Part shown: positions 7,326 through 38,274 of the stretch, in pieces
Position numbering within the stretch: the first letter of the stretch is position 1
Layout: the number at the start of each line of letters is the position of its first letter
Assembly: GCA_019828595.1 (NCBI GenBank)
Contig: JAHQRK010000008.1
Span: 2,108,001-2,172,000 of the forward strand
Length of the DNA stretch: 64,000 nt
Direction of reading: 5' to 3'
Source of the DNA: Aphanomyces cochlioides
Taxonomy: Eukaryota; Oomycota; Saprolegniomycetes; Saprolegniales; Verrucalvaceae
The notes under the pieces: generated by a model
The model's input: only the letters and a program-made list of their open reading frames with translations
What the model was told of the DNA's origin: nothing
Database searches by the model: none
Made by a program: the position numbers and the translations under genes

Positions 7326-7349
7326 GCTCCTATGGCTCAGTGTACAATC

Positions 7350-7490
7350 GCGTATATTGAATTTAATTATACGCTAAATAGTAATGACCGTCATTAATCA
7401 CTCTTGAGTGAATAATATTGGTGCTTGTGAGATTTGAACTCAAGAAGTTTTACCTCTTGAAACTTGATTTCTGTTGTATCAGTTGATACA
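7350..7490 (-). promoter_or_regulatory. E4 3'-terminal hairpin series
   Basis: Five short inverted repeats follow one another near the element 3' end: GCGTATA/TATACGC (7350-7356 with 7368-7374), TAATGAC/GTCATTA (7382-7396), TCACTC/GAGTGA (7398-7411), TCAAGA/TCTTGA (7440-7460) and TGTATCA/TGATACA (7475-7490). They probably form the RNA structure recognised by the reverse transcriptase (inference). Confidence 0.55.
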
Positions 7491-8159: not shown

Positions 8160-8650
8160 CGTCGCTGTCGTCTCTGCCGTGTGGCTGCTCGCTTGTCTCT
8201 GTCTTGGCCGTGTCGCTGTCTCTGTCGTGTCTGCCGTGTGGCTGCTCGCTTGTCTCTGTCTTGGCCGTGTCGCTGTCTCTGTCGTGTCTGCTGTGTGATT
8301 GCTCGCTTGTATCTGTTGTGGCCGTGTCGCTGTCTCTGTCGTCTCTGCCGTGTGGCTGCTCGCTTGTCTCTGTCTTGGCCGTGTCGCTGTCTCTGTCGTG
8401 TGATTGCTCGCTTATCTCTGTCTTGGCCGTGTCGCTGTCTCTGTCGTGTCTGCCGTGTGACTGCTCGCTTGTCTCTGTTGTGGCCGTGTTGCTGTCGCTG
8501 TCGTGTCTGCCGTGTGGCTGCTCGCTTGTCTCTGTTTTGGCCGTGTCGCTGTCGCTGTCATCTCTGCCGTGTGGCTGCTCGCTTGTCTCTGTTTTGGCCG
8601 TGTCGCTGTCGCTGTCGTCTCTGCCGTGTGGCTGCTCGCTTGTCTGCTGC
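8160..8650. repeat. 57-bp minisatellite in the E4 3' region
   Basis: About nine units with a 57-bp period; the CTGCCGTGTG-type motif recurs at 8174, 8231, 8288 (variant), 8345, 8450, 8507, 8564 and 8621. One unit, around 8400, is shortened. Because 57 is a multiple of 3, several frames stay open through the repeat by chance. Confidence 0.9.
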
Positions 8651-9681: not shown

Positions 9682-12600
9682 TTATGAAGTTGATCCTCCG
9701 CGTCCATGACTTGCAAACGCCTTGGTATGTCGTTTGAAATATTCCTTGTATTGAGTTTGTCGTTTTAGGACAACAAGAATGCGGTTGACGGTTTGGAGCG
9801 TCTGCTCATCGTTATTTTGACGAAGCCATCGGCGAACGTTTGAACTCCAAAACGTGAACGCGATATCATTGAGAGCAGGTATGTATGGTGTTGGAGCATT
9901 GTCGAATTTGACTCGGTTGCGGTGTGTCCATAGGAGATGAAGGATGGTGCACATCAACATGAACCATAACTGGTGCAACAAGTCCTTGTGCGAAGACCAA
10001 CGCCTTGCGACTTGAAAGGAGTCAAGATTTTCAATCCAATCCCAACTGAAGCGTACTCCGAATGGACCCCAAGCTTCTCTGTGAGGTAACCAAACACTGC
10101 GGATCCGTCGGCAATCCATGAATAGATGCTGCTTAGTCTCGCGTTCGTAGCACTGGGGATAGCAGCATTGTACAGCATTGGGGTGAGCAGATTCCATGAA
10201 TCGAAACTTGTCGCTAACGGGAAGAATGTCATAGATAGCACGAAACCAAACGTCCGCCTGAACTGGTGTAACAATCTTGGACAATGGCTTGACGTATCTC
10301 GACAGGTAAACGCTGATCGTTTTCTTGTCTGGTCTCATTGATGTTTCTAGGGGATGCTTCTTCGTCATTGGCGGTGCATGGAAGGTTATCTGCTTCAGTA
10401 TCTTGGCTGTCCAGGAACAGAAAGGTATGTCTTGTTCATTGTGTCGAAAGACAATGAAGCTTTGTTGTTCAGGACTACGTGGAACTGCACCTGCAACCGG
10501 CACGTCAGCCTGAGTCCAAACATCGGTTGCCATTGAGGTCAAGAGCTTGTAGAAGTGTTGGAAACTCGTTGGAATTGGTGAGTCATCGACAAAGTCGTCT
10601 TCGAGTGCGGTCATCATGGCTTTGAATTCGTCGTAGGTTGGCCATGTCCTTGTTGGAGTCAAGAAATCTTGCAAGCTTTGAAAGCCACTGCGGGCCAAGT
10701 GACGATACCAATCGCGATGATTTTTCAACTTGATCGCCAAGGAAGACGTCCCCTCTCGACCGGACACTTGGAACAGTGGGTGCGACGACAACCAAATCGG
10801 CATTTGGATCATCTGATGAATTGTAGGTTCATGTGGCGTTTTGGCAGTCATTGGAATTTTGGCCCAATGCTTCCAAATGTCTTGCCATAATGGCGACAGC
10901 AAATTGCGTTGGACAAGCTTGTTGTTGAGCGATGGATGGTATACCAAGAAATCCCACCGATCATTACGAGAATATGGGCTCATACATCGGCGCAATCGAT
11001 CTGAAGGTAAAATTGCCCACGATTGCGATGTATCATGCTCCTCTTTGACTAGAAGCTGGAGCCGTATGAGTCGTTGTTTGCGAATAGTTGAGGCTATGTG
11101 AGGCACTTTCAAGCCAATTTTTGGGTCGTGCACAAGGCCACCAGCAGCAAGAGCCAGATATTTTTCTGTCGTTTGAGTCCTGCGACTGAGAACAAATTTG
11201 TTCACCATGGATTGCCACTGCTGAATGGTACTGTCTTGAATTGGTAAAACCATGGTGTAATGCCACAACTGTGATAGGAGCATGGTGTTTACGAGTAATC
11301 TTCGACCTTTGATCGTTCTCGCTCGACACGCCCAAGTGGTGAAGGATTTGTAGAACTTGTCGGTGATGGTTTTGATTTGTAGGTTTGGATCCAAGTTATG
11401 ACCTAGGTGGATGCCCAGATACTTGACTGGAAATCCACTGGGAACCATATTCAATCTCGGGTGGTGGACAACGGGCTGTTTGCTGTCGAGAGTGAGTACT
11501 TTGCTTTTGCTCCTGTTTAACTTGGCACCAGAGTGACGACAAAACTTGTCGACAAGTTGCAATTGCGCTTCAAGGTCTACCAGAGATCCAGAAACAAGGG
11601 TTGTGTCGTCTGCGAACAAGAGGACCGAAGCGATCCCTCCTTCTGCGTTGGAAAAGGCGAAGCCGCGCTCCGGGTGGTTGCGCAACAATTGTGCAAGTGG
11701 CTCGATCGTCATCACAAACAACATTGAAGACAAAGGGTCGCCTTGCTTGACTCCCCGCGTTGGATGGAACGGCTGTGTAAGTTCTCCATTGATGTTCAAA
11801 CTTACTTTGGTGTCTTTGTAGAGGAGTTTGATCCAGTTAATAAAGTTGTCTCCCACATTAAACTTTTGGAGTACTTGATACATGAAGTTGTGGTTCACGC
11901 GGTCATAAGCTTTCTCGAAATCCAAGAACATGGCGTAAGCTTCTTCACTGAATATTGTGCAATAATGCTGAAGATCTTGAAGGAAAATGACGTGATCATG
12001 AATACGTCTGCCTTTGACGAATCCATTTTGCTCTGGTTGGATGATACTTGGCAATACATGCGATAGCCTGTAGGCCAAAGCTCTCGACAAGACCTTCACC
12101 TCCACTGGAATCAATGCAATGGGACGATAGTTGGCGGGATTCCGACGGTTGCCGCCCTTGAAGAGCAATGAGATTGCTGACCATCGCTGGAAGTCAAGTA
12201 AGCTTCCCTTGCGACTTCGATCTTGAAACACAATTCGTAGAATTTCGCCGAAGAGAAGTGAGTCCACTTGGTAAAAACAAGCTGGGAATCCATCGATGCC
12301 AGGCGACTTGTGTGGATTCATTGTTCTTATGGATTGAGCGAGTTCCGCCGCTGTCACTGGTATATCTAGCGAAGCGGACTCGTCCTCCGACAGTTCGCGT
12401 TCCAGGACTTCAAGGAAGGAGTTGAGCTCTTCAGTGTTTCTGTTTGACACGACGTCATCGTCAGTCATGACTGCAGACCAATGGTTATTGAATGCTTGGT
12501 GGATTTCTTCAGGTATGTCTGTGATGTTCCCTTCACTGTCATAACATTCCACGATAGGAACTGCGTAACGACTTGATTGGGGCTTTCGAAAGAAGTGAGA

Positions 12601-12714
12601 TGTAGCCGTTTCGTTGTGCGTGGCATGGAAGTCAAAGCTGAGGTCGGCGCGACGTTGTTTTATATTCTTGTTTACGTTCTTCATAGTTGGCTTTTGCGAC
12701 CTCGAGCGCGTCAT
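9682..12714 (-). CDS. E4 ORF2, reverse transcriptase part (after frameshift)
   Basis: Reverse transcriptase of family C. Visible motifs in order: AISLLFKGGNRRNPANYRPI, MFLDFEKAYDRV (motif A Asp), RGVKQGDPLSS, LLFADDTTLV (catalytic FADD), KYLGIHLGH. Near the C-terminus is a CX3CX7HX4C zinc motif (CYPQC ... H ... C). It continues the endonuclease frame (12632-13825) but is shifted by one base. One extra base in the A-run at 12658-12661 explains the break exactly: removing it restores the EYxQ...FDFHA junction seen in families A and B. The upstream end at 12714 is only where the open frame begins, not a true start. The copy is probably inactive. Confidence 0.9.
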   Translation of the reverse strand: MTRSRSQKPTMKNVNKNIKQRRADLSFDFHATHNETATSHFFRKPQSSRYAVPIVECYDSEGNITDIPEEIHQAFNNHWSAVMTDDDVVSNRNTEELNSFLEVLERELSEDESASLDIPVTAAELAQSIRTMNPHKSPGIDGFPACFYQVDSLLFGEILRIVFQDRSRKGSLLDFQRWSAISLLFKGGNRRNPANYRPIALIPVEVKVLSRALAYRLSHVLPSIIQPEQNGFVKGRRIHDHVIFLQDLQHYCTIFSEEAYAMFLDFEKAYDRVNHNFMYQVLQKFNVGDNFINWIKLLYKDTKVSLNINGELTQPFHPTRGVKQGDPLSSMLFVMTIEPLAQLLRNHPERGFAFSNAEGGIASVLLFADDTTLVSGSLVDLEAQLQLVDKFCRHSGAKLNRSKSKVLTLDSKQPVVHHPRLNMVPSGFPVKYLGIHLGHNLDPNLQIKTITDKFYKSFTTWACRARTIKGRRLLVNTMLLSQLWHYTMVLPIQDSTIQQWQSMVNKFVLSRRTQTTEKYLALAAGGLVHDPKIGLKVPHIASTIRKQRLIRLQLLVKEEHDTSQSWAILPSDRLRRCMSPYSRNDRWDFLVYHPSLNNKLVQRNLLSPLWQDIWKHWAKIPMTAKTPHEPTIHQMIQMPIWLSSHPLFQVSGREGTSSLAIKLKNHRDWYRHLARSGFQSLQDFLTPTRTWPTYDEFKAMMTALEDDFVDDSPIPTSFQHFYKLLTSMATDVWTQADVPVAGAVPRSPEQQSFIVFRHNEQDIPFCSWTAKILKQITFHAPPMTKKHPLETSMRPDKKTISVYLSRYVKPLSKIVTPVQADVWFRAIYDILPVSDKFRFMESAHPNAVQCCYPQCYERETKQHLFMDCRRIRSVWLPHREAWGPFGVRFSWDWIENLDSFQVARRWSSHKDLLHQLWFMLMCTILHLLWTHRNRVKFDNAPTPYIPALNDIAFTFWSSNVRRWLRQNNDEQTLQTVNRILVVLKRQTQYKEYFKRHTKAFASHGRGGSTS

Positions 12715-13825
12715 CGTTGATCCGTCGTTGTCGATGTTTCAATTGAGCTTGAAGCCACTGAATTTGAGCCGCTTGAAGTTCATTGCGCTGGTCGGTTATC
12801 AATCGAGCATGATACTTCTGCAGGAACTTCTTCGTCCGATGTTTCCAACGGGACCACAGTGATCCTGGCTCCTGAGATGCTCTCAACTCATTGAGGAGTG
12901 CATCCGCTTCATTTTTGATGGCTTCTCTTACTTCTGAGATGGTCATCAATTCTTTTGGTAATTTCCAATAGCTCTTCTGGCGCTTAATTTGGATAGGTTG
13001 AAGCTCCACGAAGTGCCAAAGGTGGTCGGTGTCTGCTGTGGGTTCGAAGTATTCCGTTGTACGAACCCAGCTAGATAAGATTGGATCCAGCAGAATGTAA
13101 TCCAGCCGATTGAGTCTTTGAGGTGACGAATAAACCCTTCGTGTAGGATTGTAGCTGCGCCAAGCGTCCACGACATTGAGCTCTTGGATCCAAGCAAAGC
13201 AAGATTGTCGGTGAGTGTGATGATTTGAAACTTCTGACCCCCTGGAATCAAGGTCTCTGTCCATTGGAAGGTTGAAGTCACCCAAGACGACATGCCTAGA
13301 GTTGAGCGGAAAATTTCGCGGCAAGGAATTGAAGAACGCGTCACGTTCATTGTCTTGCACTGGCGCGTATATATTGTGGTAATAAATCGGATCATCACCC
13401 CACATAGAGCTAACCACCATGTAGCGATCCTCGATGTCGTATTGGGTTTCGTGGTGAAGATGTTCGAAACCCGGCACTGTGGCTTGGAAGACCATCGCAA
13501 CACCACCTGAGCGGTATTGCTCCACTTGGTCGGAATTTTGTCGATGGTCGTTTGAAGCAAGGAAGTACTGGTCTTTGCCAAGAGCATGCGTCAAGTGGAA
13601 TTGGAACTTGTCGAATTGCACGATACCAGCAAATTTGGTCTCTTGTAAGCCGACAATGTTGTACCTCGAGATCATGGAATTTACAAGTAAGTTTCCACTA
13701 TCTCTCGATACACCATTGATATTGGCTGTGGCGATAGATAACTTGGATAGCGAAGAGTTTGGAAAGGATGGTTGCGTTGAGTTTGTTGGTGGATTGTTTG
13801 GGTGTGTTTGTGGTTGACCTTGCAC
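12632..13825 (-). CDS. E4 ORF2, APE/EEP endonuclease part (before frameshift)
   Basis: N-terminal part of family C ORF2. Endonuclease motifs: ATANINGV (metal/phosphate-binding Asn), LQETKF (catalytic Glu), VLGDFNLP (Asp and Asn), RLDYILLD and TDHLWH (Asp-His pair). The frame ends at a TGA at 12632 because of the 1-bp insertion at 12658-12661. As in family A, there is no ATG upstream of the first catalytic motif; 13825 is a GTG. The frame is open back through the ORF1 stop to a TAG near 13930. ORF2 is therefore probably translated by reinitiation, frameshifting or a non-AUG start. Confidence 0.88.
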   Translation of the reverse strand: MQGQPQTHPNNPPTNSTQPSFPNSSLSKLSIATANINGVSRDSGNLLVNSMISRYNIVGLQETKFAGIVQFDKFQFHLTHALGKDQYFLASNDHRQNSDQVEQYRSGGVAMVFQATVPGFEHLHHETQYDIEDRYMVVSSMWGDDPIYYHNIYAPVQDNERDAFFNSLPRNFPLNSRHVVLGDFNLPMDRDLDSRGSEVSNHHTHRQSCFAWIQELNVVDAWRSYNPTRRVYSSPQRLNRLDYILLDPILSSWVRTTEYFEPTADTDHLWHFVELQPIQIKRQKSYWKLPKELMTISEVREAIKNEADALLNELRASQEPGSLWSRWKHRTKKFLQKYHARLITDQRNELQAAQIQWLQAQLKHRQRRINDDALEVAKANYEERKQEYKTTSRRPQL

Positions 13826-13841
13826 AACAGCCGCGAGGACT

Positions 13842-16535
13842 TTAGTACAAGAGGATGTGTCGGCGCTGCAGACGGGTATTGTCCTGGCCGACGAATGCCA
13901 TTGACGAGTTGTTTGTAGGTTGATATGCGTCTAGGCTGAGTTGCCAGATCCACGAAGTCATTTCCGTTTTGCACAAGTGGTGCAATTCCTCTGCGAATTG
14001 TTGTCCAAACGACGATTTCAACAGCGCCCAGAGCGTATTCGATGCAAGCATCCTTACATGCTTGGTTGGGAGCCACTCAACGGGTTGGCGTGTGAGGTAA
14101 AGTAGCCAAATGTCATTCTTGAAGACTAACGGTGCTTGGACAGAGAGCCATAACTCGAATGCTGAGAGGGCGTCTTCGACGTGCTCAGATGAAAAGGCTG
14201 GATGGTTTGCGGCGTCCTTGAAGAACTCGGGAGAGTTTGAGATTTCTTCAAGTCGTGACCACCGTGGGTGTTCCTGGAACGTAAATTTGAACCCGTTGGT
14301 GAATGAATCCACTAAAGGAAGTTGAGTCGCGGCAATCCATCGATGCCAGGTATGCATTCGGACGACTTTGGAGTATTCATGGTACGAATTGATAGCGAGT
14401 TTGGTGAGCACGACGTTCATGCTTTGAGGTTGCGTGTGGATTATCTTCCACAAAGAGTCCACATTGCACCGTCGGATCGAATCGACTACATCAAGTTCTG
14501 TTCCTGAGTAGTCTGTGGTTGCGATGACTTGAGTGTGTTGCTCGAAGGAGGTTCCGTCTTCAGCACTTTGTTGCAGGACATTCATGAACTCTTCCATGGT
14601 AAGGTTGTCTGGATGCCAGTCGAGTTTGTTGCTAACGACGTGTTGCTTCTTGACGTAGGCAGACTTCATGGCCGCTACGTCGGTGGGGAGTTTGTTGACT
14701 TTTGGTATGTACACTCGAGTTGAAACATCTTGATGTATTTCAAGTGTGCGTGTGCTGGCCTCGATTTGATTGAGGACATCGAAGAAGTTGTCGGATGCCC
14801 ACGACTTGACAGTCGGCGATGACTGCTGAACTGCCGTTCTCTTCTTGCGTCGTGGTGCTTCAAATCCGTCTTCTTCGCCGGTCTGACTTGTGTTTCTCTT
14901 GGTAGATTTGGCATCGACTTCCATCTCTTCTCCCTTATCAGCGTTGCGGCCATCAAGGGAGGAGGTGCTGTCGTTCGTTTGTTGATTGGGATCATTATTG
15001 GATTCCTCGACTTCCATTTCCTCGGCTTGTTCCTCCTGCTGAGGTTCTTCCGTTTGGTTGGAGCCTTGGTGCAACTCCTCGACTTCCATTTCCTCGCCTT
15101 GTTCCTCCTGCTGAGGCTTAGCTGCTTCGCGGGGTGGCTGGTCGTCGGTCTTTGGACGCTTGGGTTGTTGTTGCGATTCTGATTCTTCTTCCTTGTGGGG
15201 ACTTGACGGCTGTGAAGCCATAGATTCCACGAGTTGGTCAAGATCCAAGCAATGAGGAGAACGCGCGCCCGTACGTTGGCTTGGCTTTTCGTAGTCTTTG
15301 ACGAAGACATTGTAGGTTACGCCGTCCATGCGCAATTGATCGGTGGCGTGTCCGTTAACAATGAGTTGATTAGGAGCGGTTGACTCCAAGAAGTAAACCC
15401 TCCACACATTCGACTGGCACGTGATATTGGGTAAATGTTGACGGTACGCTTGAAAGACTGGTTTTGTCTTGAGTCGCTTCAATAGGCGAAACAGTTTGTC
15501 CGTATCAAAGTTGAAACGGATACCAACAATATCCATGAAGTAAAGTGCATCCATTGGGTCCTTTGGCGCTTTTGATCCTCCCGAGAAGTGACGCGGCGTC
15601 TTGTTGGTTGTGGCTGTCGAGAATGGGTACGACTTGCCATAGATGGAGATCTCTTGACCTTCCAATTCAGAGCGAACGAATGGCGACGTGATAGACACCA
15701 CGATATCACCATCGCGTGCCTTGTTGAGTTGAACAAACTCGAGCAAGAGGTGAGCCCAAGAAGCCTGGGCGTTCTCCTTGAAGATTGCGGCAATGAGTTT
15801 CTCATTGGAGAACTCGCGGTCTTTGAACGCGTCGCCCGTTTTGATCCACACTGTGGCGGTAGCTGTTTTTGGTTTCGAAGGTGTGGCGTCTGAAATGACT
15901 TGTAGGACTTCATCCTCGTCAGCTTCTTCGTTGCGAGCAAGTTGCATCAACTTGTCGAGATACTCGGTCGTCGGGCGGGTCAAGACGGTCTTCACCCGCT
16001 CCGTAGTAGGTTTCCCTACCCCTTTGCGTAACAAATCCGCATAGGTCAATTTTTGAGGTGCTGGTTGCACGACACGTGGCGGAGTTCCTTCGGGGTCCGA
16101 GAGGTCGACATGGAGTCGAGTGCCAGGTGCGTTGTTCGAAGGAGTTGGTGGTGATGTTTCTTCATTAGGTGGCGAGTCATTTGAGCCAGGAGCGCTCATT
16201 GCGGCTTCAGCAGCGCGAGCGAGCGGCGCATCGTCTCGGTTGTGAGACTCGGCGGTTGGCTCGGGACTTGGAACGTTTCGAGCGTTCGAGTCGGTGGAAG
16301 GTTCCAGTGATTCACGACAGTCGTTTGGAGGCTGCGACAAGTGATCAGCATCCTCACGAGAGTCCAAAGAGGTGCTCGCGACGAGCGGTGGTTCGGTCAT
16401 CGGCGCATCGACAAGAGGTGCAAAGGACGAGGTTTCATCGTGGTGATTGTTTTCATTAGGCATGCGACCATAAGAATCTTCAAAGACGCGAGCGCTGGGA
16501 GCATTGGCGGTAGCTGACGTGGCGGTGGACGACAT
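13842..16535 (-). CDS. E4 ORF1, 897 aa, LINE RNA-binding/coat-type protein
   Basis: Family C ORF1. The ATG at 16533-16535 is about 82 nt from the element 5' end. The N-terminal ~150 residues are Ser/Pro/Glu-rich and probably disordered. A middle stretch resembles the RRM-like segment of families A and B (ALYFMDIVGIRF, then LFRLLKRLKTKP, then VWRVYFLEST). An acidic Gln/Glu-rich part contains the repeat QQEEQ-EEMEVEE twice, then a basic patch (RRKKR). The C-terminal helical part aligns with the other families (RWIAATQ; LWLSVQAPLVF). The stop overlaps the ORF2 frame in the same +1 relation as in families A and B. No zinc knuckle was seen. Confidence 0.82.
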   Translation of the reverse strand: MSSTATSATANAPSARVFEDSYGRMPNENNHHDETSSFAPLVDAPMTEPPLVASTSLDSREDADHLSQPPNDCRESLEPSTDSNARNVPSPEPTAESHNRDDAPLARAAEAAMSAPGSNDSPPNEETSPPTPSNNAPGTRLHVDLSDPEGTPPRVVQPAPQKLTYADLLRKGVGKPTTERVKTVLTRPTTEYLDKLMQLARNEEADEDEVLQVISDATPSKPKTATATVWIKTGDAFKDREFSNEKLIAAIFKENAQASWAHLLLEFVQLNKARDGDIVVSITSPFVRSELEGQEISIYGKSYPFSTATTNKTPRHFSGGSKAPKDPMDALYFMDIVGIRFNFDTDKLFRLLKRLKTKPVFQAYRQHLPNITCQSNVWRVYFLESTAPNQLIVNGHATDQLRMDGVTYNVFVKDYEKPSQRTGARSPHCLDLDQLVESMASQPSSPHKEEESESQQQPKRPKTDDQPPREAAKPQQEEQGEEMEVEELHQGSNQTEEPQQEEQAEEMEVEESNNDPNQQTNDSTSSLDGRNADKGEEMEVDAKSTKRNTSQTGEEDGFEAPRRKKRTAVQQSSPTVKSWASDNFFDVLNQIEASTRTLEIHQDVSTRVYIPKVNKLPTDVAAMKSAYVKKQHVVSNKLDWHPDNLTMEEFMNVLQQSAEDGTSFEQHTQVIATTDYSGTELDVVDSIRRCNVDSLWKIIHTQPQSMNVVLTKLAINSYHEYSKVVRMHTWHRWIAATQLPLVDSFTNGFKFTFQEHPRWSRLEEISNSPEFFKDAANHPAFSSEHVEDALSAFELWLSVQAPLVFKNDIWLLYLTRQPVEWLPTKHVRMLASNTLWALLKSSFGQQFAEELHHLCKTEMTSWIWQLSLDAYQPTNNSSMAFVGQDNTRLQRRHILLY

Positions 16536-16631
16536 ACTTCACTTCACTTGGGAGGCGGGAGGGGTACCTTACTTGAACTGACTACTGACTTGAGTGGTTG
16601 ACGGCAAAAGTAAAAGTGCTCCTATGGCTCA

Positions 16632-19043: not shown

Positions 19044-19116
19044 GCTCCTATGGCTCAGTTGGTAGAGCGTCAGTCTCATAATCTGAAGGTCGCCAGTTCG
19101 ATCCTGGCTGGGAGCA
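19044..19116 (+). tRNA. tRNA 2, elongator tRNA-Met(CAT)
   Basis: 73 nt. Acceptor GCTCCTA pairs with TGGGAGC (one T-G pair), D-stem GCTC/GAGC, anticodon stem TCAGT/TCTGA with loop CTCATAA (anticodon CAT), T-arm GCCAG-TTCGATC-CTGGC, discriminator A. The anticodon arm and variable loop match the usual eukaryotic elongator Met tRNA, not the initiator. No intron; CCA is not encoded. Preceded by spacer, so this is the undisturbed form of the unit. Confidence 0.97.
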
Positions 19117-22546: not shown

Positions 22547-22560
22547 GCTCCTATGGCTCA

Positions 22561-23649
22561 ATGTCAATGGGGAGTCTATTTGTAGTTAATGTAAACTACA
22601 AACTAATATTGCCCGAAGGCTCATCCCATTTCCAACTGCTAGGCTGAATTGGAAATCAATTTGGCTTTTCGTTTTCTTGATTCGCTTCGACGTTGGGACT
22701 TCGATTTCTTCGGTGTTTGTAAGCTAACACGGCGAATATGTCGGATAAAACTGACTCTTGGCATCTGACCCAGGGGGTATACATTTTCATTGTCTTGGAT
22801 CATACATAGACTTCGGTCTATGCAGCGCTTGTATCGCTTGGCGAGGACCCAGCAATGGGATGTTGAATCAGTGACAGAAACAACCAAGAATTCTCCGTCA
22901 GGCTCATCCAATATCGCTCTACAGATATCACGAATTGGATCACCCACCGATTGCTTGAGCAGTTGACGGGAGAATATGGCGTCGTTGTAGTGGAATCCAT
23001 GTGTGTATGCCAGCTTGAGAAAATCATGCATCTTGGAAGGGGGAATGCCCGCGTCTTGAGGAACTCCATGGGCCTCTTTGAAACCCGAAATGACTTCTTC
23101 GCTGAGCTCAAAATTGGAGACATTCAAATTGGTAGCAACGATTCGGATTGCAGCCGCAAGACAAGATTTGTCACTGTTGTTGCCAATTTCTAGCCACAGA
23201 GGATCCATCGCTCGAAATTCAGCAAGCGTTGGGGCGAGACCAGTGTTCGTGAGGAAGTGGGCTCCAGCTTGTCGCCATCGTTGGTACATCGCCACGGCTT
23301 CTTGACACCCGCTGAGGTCTTTTTCGTCGAACCAGTCTTTGTCGAGTCCATCCGGGCGTTGAAACTTCCAGTTGACTTGGTATTGAATAGTTGAAATTCG
23401 ATTTCGCATTGATGCCACTTCGCGGTGGTCATCGATAAACAACACTTCATCGATGTCATCATCGTCGGTTGGAATTCGCAGAGTGCGTGGGCGGTTGGTT
23501 GGGGCATCAGCCGTTGTCGCATTCGTTTGTGGCCTGGCTGGAACAGAAACATCGTCCAATAGATCCATGAGGGATGGTAGCGGAGATCCATTGTCATTGC
23601 CCAAGGGGTCAAATTCGCGGGTGCTCGAGTTCAAAATGGACATATCAGC
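22561..23649 (-). mobile_element. E8: family A LINE, 5'-truncated (1.09 kb)
   Basis: Target copies at 22547-22560 and 23650-23663. Keeps the 3' UTR and ORF3 from about residue 125 to the stop. Confidence 0.95.
22639..23649 (-). pseudogene. E8 ORF3 fragment (chromodomain, protease-like domain, basic tail)
   Basis: Starts in the disordered part at DMSILNSS and is open to the stop. An apparent N-terminal extension (MTLSHRS) is only the antisense tRNA target copy. Confidence 0.9.
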
Positions 23650-23668
23650 GCTCCTATGGCTCAATGTC

Positions 23669-23733
23669 AATGGGGAGTCTATTTGTAGTTAATGTAAACT
23701 ACAAACTAATATTGCCCGAAGGCTCATCCCATT
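23669..23733 (-). promoter_or_regulatory. Family A 3'-terminal three-way junction (E9)
   Basis: Written as + strand positions: outer stem AATGGG (23669-23674) with CCCATT (23728-23733); hairpin of 9 perfect pairs, 23682-23690 with 23697-23705; hairpin GCC/GGC (23714-23716 with 23721-23723) closing a UUCG tetraloop on the RNA strand. The same fold with different bases occurs in family B. It is probably the template-recognition structure for reverse transcription (inference). Confidence 0.7.
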
Positions 23734-23741
23734 TCCAACTG

Positions 23742-25118
23742 CTAGGCTGAATTGGAAATCAATTTGGCTTTTCGTTTTCTTGATTCGCTTCGACGTTGGG
23801 ACTTCGATTTCTTCGGTGTTTGTAAGCTAACACGGCGAATATGTCGGATAAAACTGACTCTTGGCATCTGACCCAGGGGGTATACATTTTCATTGTCTTG
23901 GATCATACATAGACTTCGGTCTATGCAGCGCTTGTATCGCTTGGCGAGGACCCAGCAATGGGATGTTGAATCAGTGACAGAAACAACCAAGAATTCTCCG
24001 TCAGGCTCATCCAATATCGCTCTACAGATATCACGAATTGGATCACCCACCGATTGCTTGAGCAGTTGACGGGAGAATATGGCGTCGTTGTAGTGGAATC
24101 CATGTGTGTATGCCAGCTTGAGAAAATCATGCATCTTGGAAGGGGGAATGCCCGCGTCTTGAGGAACTCCATGGGCCTCTTTGAAACCCGAAATGACTTC
24201 TTCGCTGAGCTCAAAATTGGAGACATTCAAATTGGTAGCAACGATTCGGATTGCAGCCGCAAGACAAGATTTGTCACTGTTGTTGCCAATTTCTAGCCAC
24301 AGAGGATCCATCGCTCGAAATTCAGCAAGCGTTGGGGCGAGACCAGTGTTCGTGAGGAAGTGGGCTCCAGCTTGTCGCCATCGTTGGTACATCGCCACGG
24401 CTTCTTGACACCCGCTGAGGTCTTTTTCGTCGAACCAGTCTTTGTCGAGTCCATCCGGGCGTTGAAACTTCCAGTTGACTTGGTATTGAATAGTTGAAAT
24501 TCGATTTCGCATTGATGCCACTTCGCGGTGGTCATCGATAAACAACACTTCATCGATGTCATCATCGTCGGTTGGAATTCGCAGAGTGCGTGGGCGGTTG
24601 GTTGGGGCATCAGCCGTTGTCGCATTCGTTTGTGGCCTGGCTGGAACAGAAACATCGTCCAATAGATCCATGAGGGATGGTAGCGGAGATCCATTGTCAT
24701 TGCCCAAGGGGTCAAATTCGCGGGTGCTCGAGTTCAAAATGGACATATCAGGAGTAAATTGGTGTTCTTCAGTTGTAACTGGACTTGAAGGACGAGTGTC
24801 GGATGATTGCGTCATAGGTACAGAAATCTCAACTCCATCCACTCCCTCAAGAGTAATCCCTGGAGACATCGAGCTCCCCACACCTCGTGTAGTTATGGGT
24901 CTCGACGTCTGCGCGGGGAGTACGCTATCGGCAGTGAAAATCGTTGAAGCTTCCATTGTTGTTGTCTTGGGTAAAATCAAAAGTGAGTCTTGGAGAATTG
25001 TTTTGAGATTCTCACTGAACATATTCTCAGTTGCGACACTTGAGTCAGGCACGATTTGATTGGGCAGTGAAATGTTTTGCGCGGATCGTGAGTGATGGTC
25101 GCCAGGATTCCCAATCAA
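23742..25118 (-). CDS. E9 ORF3, 458 aa, chromodomain plus papain-like cysteine protease-like protein
   Basis: Unusual third LINE ORF. Residues ~1-185 are Ser/Thr/Pro-rich and acidic, probably disordered. Residues ~189-248 resemble a chromodomain: DEVLFIDDHR, YQVNWKF with the conserved Trp, DWFDEKDLSGCQEAV, then MYQRW as the C-terminal helix. Only part of the methyl-lysine aromatic cage is obvious. Residues ~275-420 have Asn279/280, Cys285 (KSCLAAA), His387 (SHCWVLA) and Asp408 (IQDNEN) in the Cys-His-Asp order of papain-like folds (unlike Ulp1). Residues ~435-452 form a basic nuclear-signal-like tail. The frame opens at TTG (25118); the first ATG is codon 55 (24954-24956), which would still give both domains. 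It lies 51 nt after the ORF2 stop. Role unknown: targeting to chromatin or protein processing are guesses. Confidence 0.78.
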   Translation of the reverse strand: MIGNPGDHHSRSAQNISLPNQIVPDSSVATENMFSENLKTILQDSLLILPKTTTMEASTIFTADSVLPAQTSRPITTRGVGSSMSPGITLEGVDGVEISVPMTQSSDTRPSSPVTTEEHQFTPDMSILNSSTREFDPLGNDNGSPLPSLMDLLDDVSVPARPQTNATTADAPTNRPRTLRIPTDDDDIDEVLFIDDHREVASMRNRISTIQYQVNWKFQRPDGLDKDWFDEKDLSGCQEAVAMYQRWRQAGAHFLTNTGLAPTLAEFRAMDPLWLEIGNNSDKSCLAAAIRIVATNLNVSNFELSEEVISGFKEAHGVPQDAGIPPSKMHDFLKLAYTHGFHYNDAIFSRQLLKQSVGDPIRDICRAILDEPDGEFLVVSVTDSTSHCWVLAKRYKRCIDRSLCMIQDNENVYPLGQMPRVSFIRHIRRVSLQTPKKSKSQRRSESRKRKAKLISNSA

Positions 25119-25169
25119 AAATTCAGCTGGGATACCAAGTCAAGAATACAGCTGGGGCTTGTAATCAAA

Positions 25170-28145
25170 TTACTGGTGTTCAACTCGAAAAGACATGGGA
25201 TATTTTTCGAATAGCTCGTTGTATCCAGCTTGAGAGAAAAGGACTGAGACCGCTTCGATGATGTTTCGATAGTCGAAGTCGTCAGGCGAGAGCAAACGAA
25301 TTGTTCGCCTGATGGAAGCTGTCCAACTGACAAATATAATCTCGTTCCATAGTAAAATCGGTAGAGGCTTTTTGCCATCGAACTTGGTTGCATTTCTTTG
25401 AGTCCATAAGGAGTACGTGATGGAAGCACAAAGGAGGGACCATAATTTGAATAATGCGTCATGCAGGTGTTTTCCTCGCGTATTGGTCTTGAAGCGACTG
25501 ATATTCGTGGTGGTTGCCCAATCAAACTTAACACCATAAGCACTCCATGCTCGCTCTTGGAACATCCAAACTTGATGTACATGATGACATGTATGGAAGG
25601 CATGATGAAAAGTCTCAACATCCGAGCAATCTTCGTAGACACAACAAATAGCGTCAGGGTTTTGGATCTGCATATAGGAAAACCTCGAGTTGACGGGTAA
25701 CATCTTCATGTGCAATCGAAACCATACATCGCCTTGAACAGGTGGAGGTAGATTACACACAGTACGAATGAGACGGATATACTTTGCTATGTCTTTGTCA
25801 GTTCTTGTCGTAGTCTTCATAGGATGTATAGCTTCAGTCTGGGGGGCGTGGTAAGCTAAATGCACCACGTTTTTCTTGGGCCACGACTCGAAAGGTAAAT
25901 CAGCATCCTTGATTCTGGCTGTAAACGGATGTTGACAAGTCGGGACATTAGGCAGTGGCGACCCTTGCCGAATGTCAAACGATCGAACAACTTTGTCGAA
26001 GATTCGTGTGAGTTGATTGTAAATGTCGGTTGTGCGGGGCAATGTGGCAAAGTCCATGACTCCGTCCTGGTTTAGACAAACTTGGGCAGCTGGATTGTTC
26101 GACGACATTCGGTTCACGAACATGGTCTCTGTTGGCCAAGCGCCATGTGGGGTCAGGAAATCCTTCAGGCATCTGAGACCATTTTTGGCCCCGTGGCGGC
26201 ACCAGAGACGCATGTCTTCATCTTTCACGACATTTGCTAACATCTTAGCAGAGCCGAAGTGCATTGCGTCGTAGGCTGTGAGCCATACCGGGAGGTTCAG
26301 TACCGTGTCGAGATTTGGAGGCACGCCGATTCGCTTACTCATGTCTGTGGCTGACCAATGTTTCCAAGTATCAAGCCACAGTGGATGGAGCTCGCGAAGC
26401 AAAAGCCACTTGGAGCTTGCATTTGGGTAGTATGAAAGAAAATCGAATGGGTGACTGTCTCGGAATAACTGATGTATTGTGCGGCTAAATTGTCGCTGTA
26501 CAAGTTTCTTCCACACCAGGATTTCACCAGGAGAATCGGCAGACATAAAGAGCTGTAAACGAAGAAGGCGTTGTGTTCGCAGCCTCGATGCAATGTGGGG
26601 GATTCCCAAGCCTAAAGGCTTGTCGTACTGCCACCTTCTATGGATTGAGGGACGGTAACTCTCATCGAGCTGGGTCTTGCGGCAAAGTATGAACTTGTTT
26701 AACATTTGTTGCCACGTAACGACCATAGCAGGAGGCACAGGTACAACGGCTGTTACATGCCACAACATAGATAGCAACATCGTGGAGGCAATAAGCTTTC
26801 GGCCCTGCAATGTCCTTGCTCGTTTACCCCATAGTTGAAAGGACGAGATGAATTTGTCGTTGAGTTTTTGAAGTTGGGAGTCAGCCGAAAGTCGATGGCC
26901 AAAGAGAATACCAAGATATTTCGTACACTGACCAGTTGGTACGATATTGAGCAAACCATCTGCTTCGATGTCTTCTTGATCGAGATGGTCGTTGAGAACC
27001 AAGGTCATGCACTTGGAACGATTCAGACGGGCCCCTGAAGCCGTGCAAAACTCTTCCACAATTGCCATTTGCTCCACAGCAGATTGCAGCGAGTTTGATA
27101 ACAACGTCGAGTCGTCGGCAAAGAATATACTCGTAATAACTGAGTCGTGGGGGAGAGCGATTCCAAGATGTGGGGACGCTCGGAGCATCTCACCAAGAGG
27201 TTCTAGGTATAGGACGAACAGTAGGCATGATAAAGGACAGCCTTGTTTGACGCCTCGGGTAGGTCGGATCTTAGGGCCAAGCTCGCCATTGAAGATGATC
27301 TGGACCAAAGGTGAGTCGTACAAAAGAGCTACCCACGCAATGAAACCATCACCAGTGTTGACTTCTCTCAGCACATCAAGCATGAATTCTCGATCCACCA
27401 TGTCGTACGCTTTCGAAAAGTCAAGGAATGTTGCATAGTAGTCGTGATCTTCGTTGGTGCAAAACGTTTGCAAAGTTTGCACAAGCAGGACGTGGTCATG
27501 CAGCCGTCGTCCTGGGACAAAGCCAGCTTGACTTGGGTGAATGAGATGAGGAGCTACTGTAGCCAGGCGATAAGCGAGGGCACGGGATAGTATCTTCACC
27601 TCCACTGACATGAGTGCAATAGGTCGGTAGTTTCCAGGATCGCCTCGATCACCAGCTTTGAAGAGCAGAGCCACAGCACTACGCCTTTGTTGAAGGAGTA
27701 GTTTACCGTGGTGGTGAAGTTGGTAGTTGAAGACCCTGACCAGGATTTCGGAGAAAGCCTCGGGTGCTACTTGGAAGAAGGCCGCTGGCCATCCATCAGG
27801 ACCAGGAGACTTGTTTGGACTCATTGTCTTGAGAGCACTACACAGCTCGGCTGCTGTGATAGGTCTGTCTAGCTCCTCGCGTTGCTCATCATTGAGTTTG
27901 CGGGAGATAAACCGTATGACAGCCCTCCGCCTCGCCCGGTTTAGCCGAGGTTGTTCGCCACGAGTGGTAGTCATTATTGCCTTCCAATGGGCAGTGAATC
28001 TCTCTTTGATAGTGGTAGGATCAGACACGGGAATGCCATCGACGTTGACCGTCGTGATAGGAACCTTGAGTCCTTGTGGCCTTCGAAAGAAGTGGCTCGT
28101 ACCACGTTCGTTGACATTTGCATGAAAATCGAATTGCTGATCCAT
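25170..28145 (-). CDS. E9 ORF2, reverse transcriptase and zinc-motif part (downstream of internal stop)
   Basis: Catalyses target-primed reverse transcription. Motifs in order: ALLFKAGDRGDPGNYRPI, TFLDFSKAYDMVD (motif A), RGVKQGCPLSC, IFFADDSTLLS (FADD catalytic pair), KYLGILFGH, then a long thumb/connection region, and near the C-terminus CX4CX7HX4C (CVYEDC ... H ... C). It is in the same frame as the endonuclease part at 28161-29288; only one TAA separates them. The ATG at 28145 is a natural Met codon in the linker, not necessarily a real start. The same region of E17 is uninterrupted. Confidence 0.93.
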   Translation of the reverse strand: MDQQFDFHANVNERGTSHFFRRPQGLKVPITTVNVDGIPVSDPTTIKERFTAHWKAIMTTTRGEQPRLNRARRRAVIRFISRKLNDEQREELDRPITAAELCSALKTMSPNKSPGPDGWPAAFFQVAPEAFSEILVRVFNYQLHHHGKLLLQQRRSAVALLFKAGDRGDPGNYRPIALMSVEVKILSRALAYRLATVAPHLIHPSQAGFVPGRRLHDHVLLVQTLQTFCTNEDHDYYATFLDFSKAYDMVDREFMLDVLREVNTGDGFIAWVALLYDSPLVQIIFNGELGPKIRPTRGVKQGCPLSCLLFVLYLEPLGEMLRASPHLGIALPHDSVITSIFFADDSTLLSNSLQSAVEQMAIVEEFCTASGARLNRSKCMTLVLNDHLDQEDIEADGLLNIVPTGQCTKYLGILFGHRLSADSQLQKLNDKFISSFQLWGKRARTLQGRKLIASTMLLSMLWHVTAVVPVPPAMVVTWQQMLNKFILCRKTQLDESYRPSIHRRWQYDKPLGLGIPHIASRLRTQRLLRLQLFMSADSPGEILVWKKLVQRQFSRTIHQLFRDSHPFDFLSYYPNASSKWLLLRELHPLWLDTWKHWSATDMSKRIGVPPNLDTVLNLPVWLTAYDAMHFGSAKMLANVVKDEDMRLWCRHGAKNGLRCLKDFLTPHGAWPTETMFVNRMSSNNPAAQVCLNQDGVMDFATLPRTTDIYNQLTRIFDKVVRSFDIRQGSPLPNVPTCQHPFTARIKDADLPFESWPKKNVVHLAYHAPQTEAIHPMKTTTRTDKDIAKYIRLIRTVCNLPPPVQGDVWFRLHMKMLPVNSRFSYMQIQNPDAICCVYEDCSDVETFHHAFHTCHHVHQVWMFQERAWSAYGVKFDWATTTNISRFKTNTRGKHLHDALFKLWSLLCASITYSLWTQRNATKFDGKKPLPILLWNEIIFVSWTASIRRTIRLLSPDDFDYRNIIEAVSVLFSQAGYNELFEKYPMSFRVEHQ

Positions 28146-28160
28146 GCGGTATTGGCGATA

Positions 28161-29288
28161 TTATTCGATTCTTGCGTTTTCCAGCGCCAACCGAGTAGCA
28201 TCAACGGCAGCCTCGTCGAGCAAGCCAGCTTCGTATGATCGTTGTGCAGATATATGTCTCAGTTTTAGGCTTTTGAGCTCGTGTTGCATGGATTGGAGGT
28301 GGTGGCGATGACATTGTTGTAAACGTCGTTTGATTCGCTTAAGCCACCCATACCAGACGGCTCCCATGTTTGTCGATTCGTCCGCACGCATCTCAGAGAG
28401 GAGGTGTGATGCCTCTTCTCGTATGGCTTTGATGACGAGCGGGTCTTTGAGTAGCTCTCTCGGCAGCCTCCAGTAGCCACGGGTCGTGGGTGTATGACTT
28501 GTAGAGAGAACGACAGTGTGCTCCAAGTGATCTCCGGCAAAGCTGTTAGTGGCATATTTTGAGCTTTGGTAGGATTGGGCAACTAAATCTTGGTCAATGA
28601 ACCAGTAGTCCAGACGATTGCTTCGTCCTGGACCGCTTGCCAGTCTTTCGTGAGGGTGGTGTAGGCGCCACGCGTCGATGACTCCTAGTTGTGACAGCCA
28701 GGCAAGACATTCGACTTTTCCAAAGGTGTGATCTTGCCGTGGTTTGGAAGCATCGAGGTGTTCGTTGACAGGAAGGTTAAAATCTCCCCCAACCAGGTGT
28801 ACACTGTTAGCTTCAAAAGCGCGAGGGAGACTGTCAAAGAAACTAGCCCGATGTTGAGGGGTAACTGGCGCGTAAATGTTGTGGATGTAGACTGGGGTTT
28901 CATCCCAGTACGTTTTGATCACAATATAACGGCCAGGGATATCGTGTTGTGATAAGTGCACCAGGCTTGAGAATCCAGGCATCGATTCGTGAAAGTATGA
29001 TGCAACGCCACATCGACGGTTGTTCAAATTGTCCGTGCGGGTTGTTCGTAAGTCGTTGGTAAAAAGTTTGTACTTGCTAACACCCACTTCGTTGTCGAGG
29101 TGAGTGTGGAAAGTGTCAAGATGTTTTGCGTTGTTGAGTTTCGTTTCTTGAAAGAGAACAGCTTGTGTCGGTTTCCGAAGACGCCGTGCAACAAGATGTC
29201 CGTTTTCTTTCAGCCCATTGAGGTTGCTCGTCGTCACTTCAAGTATGGGGAGCTTGACAAAATGACCAGCCGCGACCACTTTAGCCAC
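28161..29288 (-). CDS. E9 ORF2, APE/EEP endonuclease part, ending at an acquired stop
   Basis: Endonuclease presumed to nick the tRNA gene. Motifs: TTSNLNGL, LFQETKLN (catalytic Glu), IHNIYAP, VGGDFNLP (Asp, Asn), RLDYWFIDQD, AGDHLEH (Asp-His). The TAA at 28161-28163 arises from an in-frame 3-bp insertion (GATATT to GATATTATT on the + strand); E1 and E17 lack it. 29288 is a GTG. The frame opens after a TAG about 35 nt further up and contains no ATG before the endonuclease, so the real start mechanism is unclear. Confidence 0.9.
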   Translation of the reverse strand: MAKVVAAGHFVKLPILEVTTSNLNGLKENGHLVARRLRKPTQAVLFQETKLNNAKHLDTFHTHLDNEVGVSKYKLFTNDLRTTRTDNLNNRRCGVASYFHESMPGFSSLVHLSQHDIPGRYIVIKTYWDETPVYIHNIYAPVTPQHRASFFDSLPRAFEANSVHLVGGDFNLPVNEHLDASKPRQDHTFGKVECLAWLSQLGVIDAWRLHHPHERLASGPGRSNRLDYWFIDQDLVAQSYQSSKYATNSFAGDHLEHTVVLSTSHTPTTRGYWRLPRELLKDPLVIKAIREEASHLLSEMRADESTNMGAVWYGWLKRIKRRLQQCHRHHLQSMQHELKSLKLRHISAQRSYEAGLLDEAAVDATRLALENARIE

Positions 29289-31746
29289 GGGAAGCGATCG
29301 TTGTGAGATCCGCTAGGTCGCCGTGAATTAAAGTAGGTTCGCTTGGGTGAAACATGACTTGATTGTGGAGAGTGATATCCAAATCGTTGCTTTCGTGTAG
29401 TTGAAGGATTTTTGTCATGATGTGACACATCGATTCTCCGTCGCCAGTGTACATGAATTCCATTCTGTTCCATATGTGGAGGCCAAGGTCGGTGTACATC
29501 AGGAGTGACATGAGCGTTTCGGAGGATAGACTGCGTTTACCAAGGCGAGAGGGTAACGCTGTCACTGGACTTTTTGTTGAGGCCAAAATTGCCGCATCGC
29601 TATTGAAATATAGTGGAGCATGAACTGCCATCAATACTTCTGCAATGGCCAGCACTTCTTCGACTTCAACTCTGTTGAGGACGATGTCATCATCGGTGAT
29701 GATTGCCTCGATGAGTGGGAGGTTGTTGACCATCTTCTGGTCACTGAACACCGAGATCACGTGGTCGTGAGTGATTGGAGTGCCGAATGTTGCCTCGTAG
29801 AGCTGACCAAAAGATTTTGTGCCACCACCAGACGCTCTTAGCCAACGATTAAGCAGTCGAAGACGAACAAAGTATTCGAAGCTGTCACGATTGGAGACAA
29901 AAATTTGGTGCAGTTGCAGTCCAAATTCGATTGGCGCACGTTCTAGATGGATGCAGATCGTGTCAACACGCCCGTCCGTAATCAATTTCAATAAGTTGAA
30001 GGAATCGTGCGCTAACGCTTCCTTAACTTGGGCCGGGATATGTTGTGGTGCGTTTTGAGCCTTGGTGTCAAGGTCGTTGAGCTCGGCAAGTATGGCATCG
30101 AGAGACTTCTCAAACCTTTGGATTGAGCCCTCGTGGGGTTTGATCCCGCTAATGAACTCTTCAGCGGCAACGTGCACCTTGTCACCAGATTTGAGTGTCA
30201 GCTTTGGAACAAATACTTTGACAGTGGTGTTGCCAACTGTCGTTTCGTGTTCCTCGGGCTCAACATTAGCGCGTTCGTCCAGAGCCGCAAACATGTTCGG
30301 GGAGATCCAAGGACGATCAGGAGCTGGGATTGAGCCAGCGGAGATTGGGGTTTTCTTTCTTTTGCCTGTAGTTTGAACTTCAGTCCATTCCTTGTTGCTG
30401 TCTCGGGTCGTTTTCTGCCGTTTGGCAGTGGATGTCGAGACAGCGGCGTCTCCCCGTGGGCGGTGAGGGGTTGCGTGAAGTCCATGTTGGGTGGCGATTA
30501 CATCGAGGTCAAGGCGCGCGAGCTTCTTGTCACGGTAAAACCATCCTTGACCAAACACGCGGAGGCACCGACCCTTGAAAATGAATTCTTCAATTGATCG
30601 ACCGTCATTGTGCATAGATTCGGGTATAGCTGTCCCTTCAAAATACAAGCGATAACGAGAGCTAGCCAAGCCAGTCGTCGAGGAAACTGTGGAGTATGAG
30701 CCCCACAAAAAGCGCGGCTCAAGCTTTGACATGATGCTGAACATGAGACGTTCTTCATCCTGTCCTTGGAGACCAGATGGGATATCGATGAAATATCCAT
30801 CAAGTATATGGGGCTCAGTCATGACAAATCTCTGAGAGCTGCCATCCTTTGCCACTTGGATCTTGAGAGAGACTCCACGCAGCTTTTTAAGAGCATCTTC
30901 AGAGGCTATGCCCCACTTGAGAAGACGATTGGAGACATCTTTCTCGCACTTGATGACATCGACAAATGCATCGTCCAAATCAAGCGCTTGGTTGTCAAAC
31001 AATAGAGATGTCATTGCCTTGGAGATGTCGATGTATTTGGTGTATTGGCCAGTGGACATTTGTAGCCAGCCAACAACATCTCTGGGGGAATGTTTTTGGA
31101 TGGGCAAAGTGTCGTCAAACGTGAGAGATCCTGTCGCGCGTTTTTGCAACAAGGACGCCAGCTCGGCCATAGTTGGTCGATAATGGCCGACGTCACTGTT
31201 CCGCTGAGCCTTGGCAGATTTAGCTCTCTGCTTGGCTTGGAATTCCCACACGCATTCGTTTGGCTTTTTGGTCGAGGTGTTCGACTCGGGTGGTATTGGC
31301 ACGGAGCGTGTTGTAGCAGGAGGCGAGGCATCGATTTGAGCTTCAGGCTCCATTTCCACATCAACATTGGTGTCGCGAATCGATTGGTCTTCAGAGCGCG
31401 GCTCCAGCTCAGTGGCTTGAGTAATCGGTGGGGTATGTGGTTGGTTGTTGTTGGAGATATCCTCTATGTCTTCATCAGGCATCGGAGAAACATTATCCTT
31501 GTTGACAGTTTTGTCGCTGGTACGAGCGCTTGGTAATGGCACGCGACCACCGAGTGTAGCAAGACGTATGGGCGGTTGAGCAGCAGGCGGAGTTTTGTCG
31601 ATGATTGAGTCAGGTTCATCGTCATCATCATCGTCAACAATCACCTCCATGATACTAGAAGCGTCCGAGGTATTGCGAAAGGGAGAGGCAGAAAAAGCTG
31701 AGGGCTTGTGTGCATGAGCACGGCTGGAAGAGCGGGTAGTCGCCAT
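29281..31746 (-). CDS. E9 ORF1, 821 aa, LINE RNA-binding/coat-type protein
   Basis: Same protein as E1 ORF1. ATG at 31744-31746. The frame is open back through the 5' UTR and into the antisense tRNA target copy (to 31818), which could add 24 meaningless residues; I prefer the internal ATG because it matches E1. RRM-like middle, two basic patches and a helical C-terminal region as in E1. Confidence 0.87.
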   Translation of the reverse strand: MATTRSSSRAHAHKPSAFSASPFRNTSDASSIMEVIVDDDDDDEPDSIIDKTPPAAQPPIRLATLGGRVPLPSARTSDKTVNKDNVSPMPDEDIEDISNNNQPHTPPITQATELEPRSEDQSIRDTNVDVEMEPEAQIDASPPATTRSVPIPPESNTSTKKPNECVWEFQAKQRAKSAKAQRNSDVGHYRPTMAELASLLQKRATGSLTFDDTLPIQKHSPRDVVGWLQMSTGQYTKYIDISKAMTSLLFDNQALDLDDAFVDVIKCEKDVSNRLLKWGIASEDALKKLRGVSLKIQVAKDGSSQRFVMTEPHILDGYFIDIPSGLQGQDEERLMFSIMSKLEPRFLWGSYSTVSSTTGLASSRYRLYFEGTAIPESMHNDGRSIEEFIFKGRCLRVFGQGWFYRDKKLARLDLDVIATQHGLHATPHRPRGDAAVSTSTAKRQKTTRDSNKEWTEVQTTGKRKKTPISAGSIPAPDRPWISPNMFAALDERANVEPEEHETTVGNTTVKVFVPKLTLKSGDKVHVAAEEFISGIKPHEGSIQRFEKSLDAILAELNDLDTKAQNAPQHIPAQVKEALAHDSFNLLKLITDGRVDTICIHLERAPIEFGLQLHQIFVSNRDSFEYFVRLRLLNRWLRASGGGTKSFGQLYEATFGTPITHDHVISVFSDQKMVNNLPLIEAIITDDDIVLNRVEVEEVLAIAEVLMAVHAPLYFNSDAAILASTKSPVTALPSRLGKRSLSSETLMSLLMYTDLGLHIWNRMEFMYTGDGESMCHIMTKILQLHESNDLDITLHNQVMFHPSEPTLIHGDLADLTTIASRG

Positions 31747-31889
31747 GTTGTCAGTTTTGGACAGTGGTACTGCGGGGTAGCTGGCAAATTGGAAACTGCT
31801 CCTATGGCTCAATGTCAATGGGGAGTCTATTTGTAGTTAATGTAAACTACAAACTAATATTGCCCGAAGGCTCATCCCATTTCCAACTG

Positions 31890-38117: not shown

Positions 38118-38121
38118 CTGC

Positions 38122-38193
38122 AATGGGGAGGTATATTAATAGACTTTCAATATCTACTAATACTAATATTGCCTACTAACGGCTCATCCCACT
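38122..38193 (-). promoter_or_regulatory. Family B 3'-terminal three-way junction (E14)
   Basis: + strand positions: outer stem AATGGG (38122-38127) with CCCACT (38188-38193), one G-U on the RNA strand; hairpin 38134-38143 with 38153-38162 (10 pairs, one G-U); hairpin GCC (38171-38173) with GGC (38181-38183). Same topology as family A, different sequence in the long hairpin. Confidence 0.68.
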
Positions 38194-38274
38194 TCCAAAT
38201 GCTTCAGCAGATTTTCTACTTTGGGCTTTGGAGTACAGCGATTTTTGACTTGTTGAATAAATACTTGGGGCTTG

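Follow-up and report, generated by a model that had tools for sequence, protein, structure and literature searches.

The stretch analysed here, called the window below, comprises 64,000 nucleotides of contig JAHQRK010000008.1 of the oomycete Aphanomyces cochlioides (assembly GCA_019828595.1, positions 2,108,001 to 2,172,000). It harbors long interspersed nuclear elements (LINEs) of three families, designated A, B and C, which are located at box A of tRNA genes in antisense orientation. They were classified as LINEs by the presence of reverse transcriptase (RT) and endonuclease sequences, 5'-truncated copies and target-site duplications. In family A the layout is open reading frame (ORF) 1, ORF2 (endonuclease and RT), a further frame ORF3, and a folded 3' tail. 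ORF3, which lies 3' of ORF2 and ends directly before the tail, is the subject of this work. The copy that holds the frame described here has the following parts.

23665..31797, minus strand: full-length family A LINE of 8.1 kb, delimited by its 5' and 3' junctions
29281..31746, minus strand: ORF1, 821 amino acids from its AUG, recognized as a frame; no Pfam match
28161..29288, minus strand: ORF2, endonuclease part (Exo_endo_phos, E 1.1e-4)
25170..28145, minus strand: ORF2, reverse transcriptase part (RVT_1, E 1.1e-32)
23742..25118, minus strand: ORF3, open frame of 458 codons; the first AUG is mostly codon 55 (24956-24954), giving ca. 404 amino acids
23665..23741, minus strand: 3' tail of 77 nt, a stem with inner hairpin (fold z -3.4), homologous to the family B tail

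The ORF3 frame and its conservation

A reading of the DNA made from the letters alone (the sequence-only reading) had proposed a frame of about 458 codons downstream of ORF2, open in four copies. It was found as described, with full-length window copies at 4705-6075, 23742-25118, 31890-33266 and 54138-55514 next to further 5'-truncated ones. The frame is open on the minus strand, and the plus strand across 23742-25118 is full of stops. There is no AUG at the beginning of the frame. Junctions between ORF2 and ORF3 were compared in 38 cases from the window, C36:1-200000 and loci L001-L020; these sequences overlap, so the junctions are not independent. In 28 of them codon 55 (24956), or its shifted equivalent, provides the first AUG downstream of ORF2, in the context ACAACAATGG. 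In nine, including that of the window copy, a further AUG is present at codon 33, and one has no AUG within 240 nt. With codon 55 as the usual first AUG, the protein is likely to be of ca. 404 residues and to be translated by reinitiation or from another RNA.

Protein searches with ORF3 gave three matches. Two are A. cochlioides hypothetical proteins (95% identity over 66% of the query and 100% over 37%), whereas the third, P0003, is a metagenomic protein that keeps the frame, with 59% identity across 71% of the query. An alignment-based search found no proteins beyond the same three; both searches covered proteins of ca. 0.55-1.75 times the query length. Identity to P0003 varies along the protein: 25% for residues 55-172, 67% for 176-250, 45% for 251-270, 69% for 271-432 and 65% for the basic tail. 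P0003 retains two conserved blocks as well as Cys285, His387 and Asp408. When neutral decay was simulated to 60% identity, none of 2000 runs was still open and the mean number of stops was 6.7; at 77% identity, with the divergence divided between two branches, 1.6% of 1000 runs remained open. The simulation leaves out indels and serves as a rough guide. Since P0003 keeps the frame at 59% identity and no neutral run did so, ORF3 is not a chance frame; it is a real frame, likely under selection in two lineages.

Copies within the species were compared as well. In the genome (76.2 Mb, 94 contigs) none of 92 scored ORF3 copies has an internal stop, and the same holds for 113 copies scored from 222 candidates with P0003 as the query. 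The 92 copies are the best-scoring of 234 first-look candidates and the sample is biased to intact copies; given this choice and their near-identity, openness among them is weak evidence. A stop is present in one of 30 protein-level matches from the window and C36:1-200000, a truncated copy. Another truncated copy, at 21943-22549, is split into two overlapping pieces and its frame is thus broken. ORF3 variants among copies comprise 11 nonsynonymous and 5 synonymous changes (nonsynonymous to synonymous ratio pN/pS 0.76, p 0.40, 16 variants), as compared to 18 and 10 for the RT (0.62, p 0.15) and 22 and 11 for family B ORF2 (0.70, p 0.22). Since even the RT shows no significant constraint, pN/pS among these young copies has no power.

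Two candidates for divergent ORF3 relatives in the genome were rejected. A supposed remnant of 63% identity at C36:116668 proved to be a composite of a tRNA-Asn gene and a truncated ORF3 tail. A search for an older ORF3 family with a degenerate SHCWVL pattern (100 places listed of 196 matches) gave six places outside family A, and the three of these that were checked are all unrelated. No protein with ORF3 fused to ORF2 was found among 120 listed of the 1281 proteins matched by an ORF2 search. Among the matches listed in that search, RT relatives come from at least Aphanomyces astaci, Thraustotheca clavata and metagenomes, and P0008 is the ORF2 nearest to that of family A. The Exo_endo_phos match of ORF2 scores 22.4 bits, under the cut-off of 24.5. 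The window copy has an in-frame stop at 28161-28163, between the endonuclease and the RT; a split ORF2 as a programmed feature was dismissed, with the stop present in this one copy and absent from 85 others.

Domains predicted in the ORF3 protein

The conserved parts of the protein correspond to two predicted domains and a basic tail, with the following positions.

24369..24593, minus strand: chromodomain-like segment, residues 176-250 (YQVNWKF ... DWFDEKDLSGCQ); Pfam Chromo and Swi6 matches, 67% identity to P0003
23823..24308, minus strand: predicted papain-like cysteine peptidase domain, residues 271-432; low-confidence model, structural neighbours, 69% identity to P0003
24264..24266, minus strand: Cys285, proposed nucleophile, kept in P0003 and invariant among the copies compared
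23958..23960, minus strand: His387, proposed catalytic base, likewise kept and invariant
23895..23897, minus strand: Asp408, proposed third catalytic residue, likewise kept and invariant
23745..23822, minus strand: basic C-terminal tail, residues 433-458, by composition

The chromodomain spacing noted at residues ca. 189-248 in the sequence-only reading falls within the segment 176-250, which matches Pfam Chromo (PF00385) with 16.8 bits and E 0.0066; the corresponding values for P0003 are 15.7 bits and E 0.015. The best match in the PDB is swi6 chain 2rso, with E 0.93 for P0001 and E 0.02 for P0003. In the swi6 alignments the YxVxW core strand motif, the downstream Trp and acidic residues are in register with known chromodomains. 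An hhalign comparison with 20 chromodomain stretches of the same genome gave a score of 17.7 (probability 5%, P 0.0073), which none of 60 column-shuffled controls exceeded (highest 16.2); the match is weak but in register.

Several results speak against a chromodomain. The curated Pfam cut-off is 25.1 bits, and because the score lies under it we call the segment chromodomain-like and do not assign it to PF00385. Of 262 candidate chromodomain matches in the genome, the 150 scored have 28.6-49.3 bits, all over the cut-off, and ORF3 is absent from these 150. A profile built from three ORF3 sequences found no chromodomain in the PDB. The AlphaFold model of residues 176-458 does not show the chromo fold, but at its low quality (predicted local distance difference test 41.6) this counts neither for nor against the fold; a structure search with this low-quality model of 283 residues gave no meaningful match. 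The methyl-lysine cage of chromodomains consists of three aromatic residues. Both swi6 alignments retain the cage Trp and have Gln, with a Phe close by, for the third cage residue Tyr, whereas the first position falls outside the alignments. We consider the chromo-like reading of residues 176-250 moderately likely; judged by sequence, the segment is a degenerate chromodomain-like module at best, and methyl-lysine binding is only putative. As a side observation, many of the scored chromodomain matches in the genome lie in repeated frames of 365 amino acids, and chromodomain-bearing repeats are abundant.

For the peptidase region structure prediction gave papain-like neighbours, in a low-confidence model. 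The three best Foldseek matches of the peptidase-domain model are C39 peptidases, and ca. 46 of the 50 rows in the VIA list for this model are papain-like, a count that leaves out rows 6, 36, 48 and 50 (uncertain or known to differ) and follows our own classification of the other rows. The proposed residues Cys285, His387 and Asp408 follow the order Cys, His, Asp or Asn of clan CA, and the one diverged homolog retains this order. Motif order, conservation and structural neighbours, taken together on this low-confidence model, make a papain-like fold quite probable, as the sequence-only reading had supposed. That reading also noted the basic tail, which is evident from 10 Lys and Arg against one Asp or Glu in the last 28 residues. 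OTU peptidases carry the signature DxxC with His-x-Asp/Asn; D282-K-S-C285 fits the first part but H387-C-W breaks the second, Pfam gave no OTU match, and assignment to this group was rejected.

The case for an active peptidase is weakened by other findings. No named Pfam peptidase family matches at E up to 1 or up to 10, and the sole match of a Pfam scan of the region is DUF1133 with E 0.21. In papain-like peptidases a Gln or Asn a few residues before the catalytic Cys forms the oxyanion hole, though other oxyanion residues are possible. Asn279 and Asn280, which the sequence-only reading had noted before the Cys, are Asp and Ser in P0003, so the oxyanion position is not conserved. Cys285, His387 and Asp408 were all kept by chance in 17.7% of the simulated neutral runs, and conservation of the triad by itself is therefore not strong evidence. 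Single copies carry the variants N279Y, D282V and T385P close to the proposed active residues. These observations would all fit a papain-like fold that is a catalytically idle binding domain, with ORF3 acting as an adaptor or counter-silencing factor. We regard this as unlikely, as all three triad residues are kept in P0003 and are invariant among the copies compared.

The tRNA-gene target and the sister families

The target was defined from the junctions of all three families and from tRNA genes in the window.

23649..23663, minus strand: target copy TGAGCCATAGGAGCG, the antisense 5' end of tRNA-Met, from junction comparison
60593..60665, plus strand: intact tRNA-Met (CAT) next to the 5' end of a LINE; further ones at 17991, 35549, 37051 and 52993
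19044..19116, plus strand: tRNA-Met of a 1053-bp tandem unit, an empty site with no LINE at this end; also 20097 and 61646
38118..45443, minus strand: family B LINE copy without ORF3, same target; ORF1 frame 42392-45433, ORF2 38275-42429
7340..16617, minus strand: family C LINE copy, same target; ORF1 13842-16535, ORF2 12632-13825 and 9682-12714

Genome-wide, TGAGC directly follows 203 of 203 exact family A tails (53 + 150 by pattern count; control 0); tail counts are equal with and without TGAGC, and the 100 places listed in each search coincide. The ca. 9 bases after TGAGC correspond to the 5' end of a tRNA gene in antisense orientation; this gene is Met in the window, Asn in C36 and Phe or Ala at other loci, and genes for these four tRNAs were found in the same sequences as the family A ends. 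Among 55 such ends, from the same overlapping sets as the junctions above, 48 match one of the four tRNAs and 7 have other or altered TGAGC sequences. Family B ends at the same tRNA point in all 19 cases from the window and C36:1-200000, once with five extra bases before TGAGC, and so does the sole family C copy of the window.

Comparison of the junctions shows that a filled site differs from an empty one by the LINE and a ca. 14-16 bp copy of the tRNA 5' end. The host flank GGCATGCC stands directly after the tRNA-Met genes at 19044, 20097 and 61646 and also after LINE 3' ends. As the duplicated 5' end completes the tRNA, the gene is whole at the 5' side of the LINE, a position found for five of the eight tRNA-Met genes in the window, and could be reused, which would explain the head-to-tail LINE stacks if insertions occurred in that order. 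The tRNA-Met genes spaced at 1053 bp (19044-20169 and 60593-61719) look like the remnant of a tandem tRNA-Met array hosting LINEs; tandem tRNA arrays occur in oomycetes (PMC9584435).

Families A and B are sister elements with ORF2 sequences that are 68-70% alike, and no ORF3 is present between ORF2 and the tail of family B. Their 3' tails are homologous (none of 500 shuffles was as good) and have an outer stem in common in the minimum-energy folds of 23665-23741 and 38118-38201 (z -3.4 and -2.5), whereas the inner parts differ and the family B ensemble is diffuse. The homologous tail is a candidate recognition signal for the RT. The start of the family B 3' untranslated region and the stretch after family A ORF2 have only a 10-nt match, with 6 of 500 shuffles equally good. 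The family C RT is ca. 38% like that of P0005, a close relative of B. No ORF3 match was found inside the one family C copy examined. Its 2.3-kb region 3' of ORF2 contains a 57-bp minisatellite (8154-8645) and has open frames on both strands, which look like a by-product of the minisatellite, and therefore no ORF3 is claimed for this family. Its ORF1 (13842-16535) has a sub-threshold DUF6840 match with E 0.00065.

The common target bears on the proposal, made in the sequence-only reading, that ORF3 helps to target the element. A chromodomain could tether or steer the element to its insertion site, like some chromodomains of long terminal repeat (LTR) element integrases; ORF3 has a chromo-like segment, the element is strictly site-specific in its 203 exact tails, and the Chronos LTR elements of oomycetes bear a chromodomain (PMC5348765). 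However, family B, which lacks ORF3, is found at the same site in 19 of 19 ends, the window copy of family C is there as well with no ORF3 match in it, and the aromatic cage appears incomplete. Target preference thus belongs to the shared machinery, and ORF3, not needed for target choice, does something else, unless family B borrows the ORF3 protein of family A in trans. On balance we find a steering role unlikely.

Possible role of ORF3 and comparison with known systems

We tentatively propose that the ORF3 product is an accessory peptidase or isopeptidase at chromatin, combining a chromo-like module, a papain-like domain and a basic tail, and that it is not the part that picks the target. 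The accessory character is suggested by the sister LINE that occupies the same tRNA sites without ORF3. In such a scheme, the element RNA would arrive at tRNA genes with the proteins of ORF1 and ORF2 and without help from ORF3. A nick made by the endonuclease in the tRNA sense strand, directly behind GCTCA, would serve as the starting point at which the RT copies the folded 3' tail. The short duplication would arise from a second nick close to the 5' end of the tRNA, and the tRNA gene would thereby remain whole and available for further insertions. The ORF3 protein, translated from an AUG of its own at codon 55, may bind a partner associated with chromatin or RNA polymerase III (Pol III) through its chromo-like module, and its peptidase may cleave a host protein there or remove ubiquitin- or SUMO-like tags from it, so that more insertions succeed or fewer are silenced. 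For the substrate we can only guess by analogy to transposons bearing Ulp1 or OTU peptidases. A more specific version, in which a LINE lineage with a box A landing pad gained a free-standing, chromatin-bound papain-like deconjugase that removes regulatory tags from chromatin associated with Pol III, at the time of insertion or afterwards, is doubtful.

The sequence-only reading also suggested that ORF3 processes the products of ORF1 or ORF2. LTR elements encode a protease that cleaves their polyproteins, and the papain-like prediction would suit such a maturation enzyme, but ORF1, ORF2 and ORF3 are separate frames and there is no polyprotein. Moreover, family B retains ORF1 and ORF2 without ORF3, so processing by ORF3 is not required in this lineage, and we consider this role quite unlikely. 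That ORF3 is a captured passenger sequence is very unlikely: family B persists without it and the pN/pS of ORF3 is not confidently below 1, but the frame stayed open and kept two domains across 41% residue divergence.

LINEs are usually regarded as one- or two-protein elements. Dualen/RandI elements are LINEs with an OTU-like cysteine protease domain inside the polyprotein, and they are not known to have a chromodomain. In agreement with the sequence-only reading, no LINE with both a chromodomain and a papain-like protease was found in the open-licence PubMed Central literature, seen in excerpts, nor was a LINE of the apurinic/apyrimidinic endonuclease (APE) type that inserts inside box A; this is not proof of absence. 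A third ORF, likely selected and with a predicted peptidase next to a chromo-like module, would add an independent example of transposons gaining a cysteine peptidase, with precedents in the Ulp1 domains of NeSL/Utopia and the OTU or Ulp1 domains of Ginger1. Family B, a sister without ORF3 at the same target, is a natural control that makes the role of peptidases in transposons testable, and box A insertion with a whole tRNA gene illustrates how several copies of an element can accumulate at a single gene that is not destroyed.

Similar to family A, the dictyostelid elements TRE5, TRE3 and NLTR-A/B are APE-type LINEs of the L1 clade aimed at tRNA genes, but their insertions fall outside box A, 2-64 bp upstream or 40-150 bp downstream, and the excerpted sources describe no chromo-peptidase ORF (PMC5911963, PMC5006619). 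Chronos, a Ty3/Gypsy element, is likewise an oomycete retroelement with a captured chromodomain; it is however an LTR element whose chromodomain adjoins the integrase, and its excerpted description mentions no papain-like peptidase (PMC5348765). Ginger1 carries a C-terminal OTU or Ulp1 cysteine peptidase, for which a ubiquitin-linked role was proposed, but it is a DNA transposon with the peptidase fused to the transposase (PMC2836005). NeSL and Utopia elements resemble family A as LINEs with multicopy small-RNA-gene targets, some of them (NeSL and one Utopia) with a cysteine protease domain; NeSL relatives are found in tRNA-Pro (NeSL-1_TV), tRNA-Arg (LIN15_SM) and tRNA-Glu (LIN25_SM) genes (PMC4640811). 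Their protease is Ulp1-like, N-terminal and part of one protein with a restriction-like endonuclease (PMC4640811), whereas family A is an APE-type LINE that enters a single point of box A in four or more kinds of tRNA gene and encodes its predicted papain-like protease in a separate 3' ORF, together with a chromo-like module.
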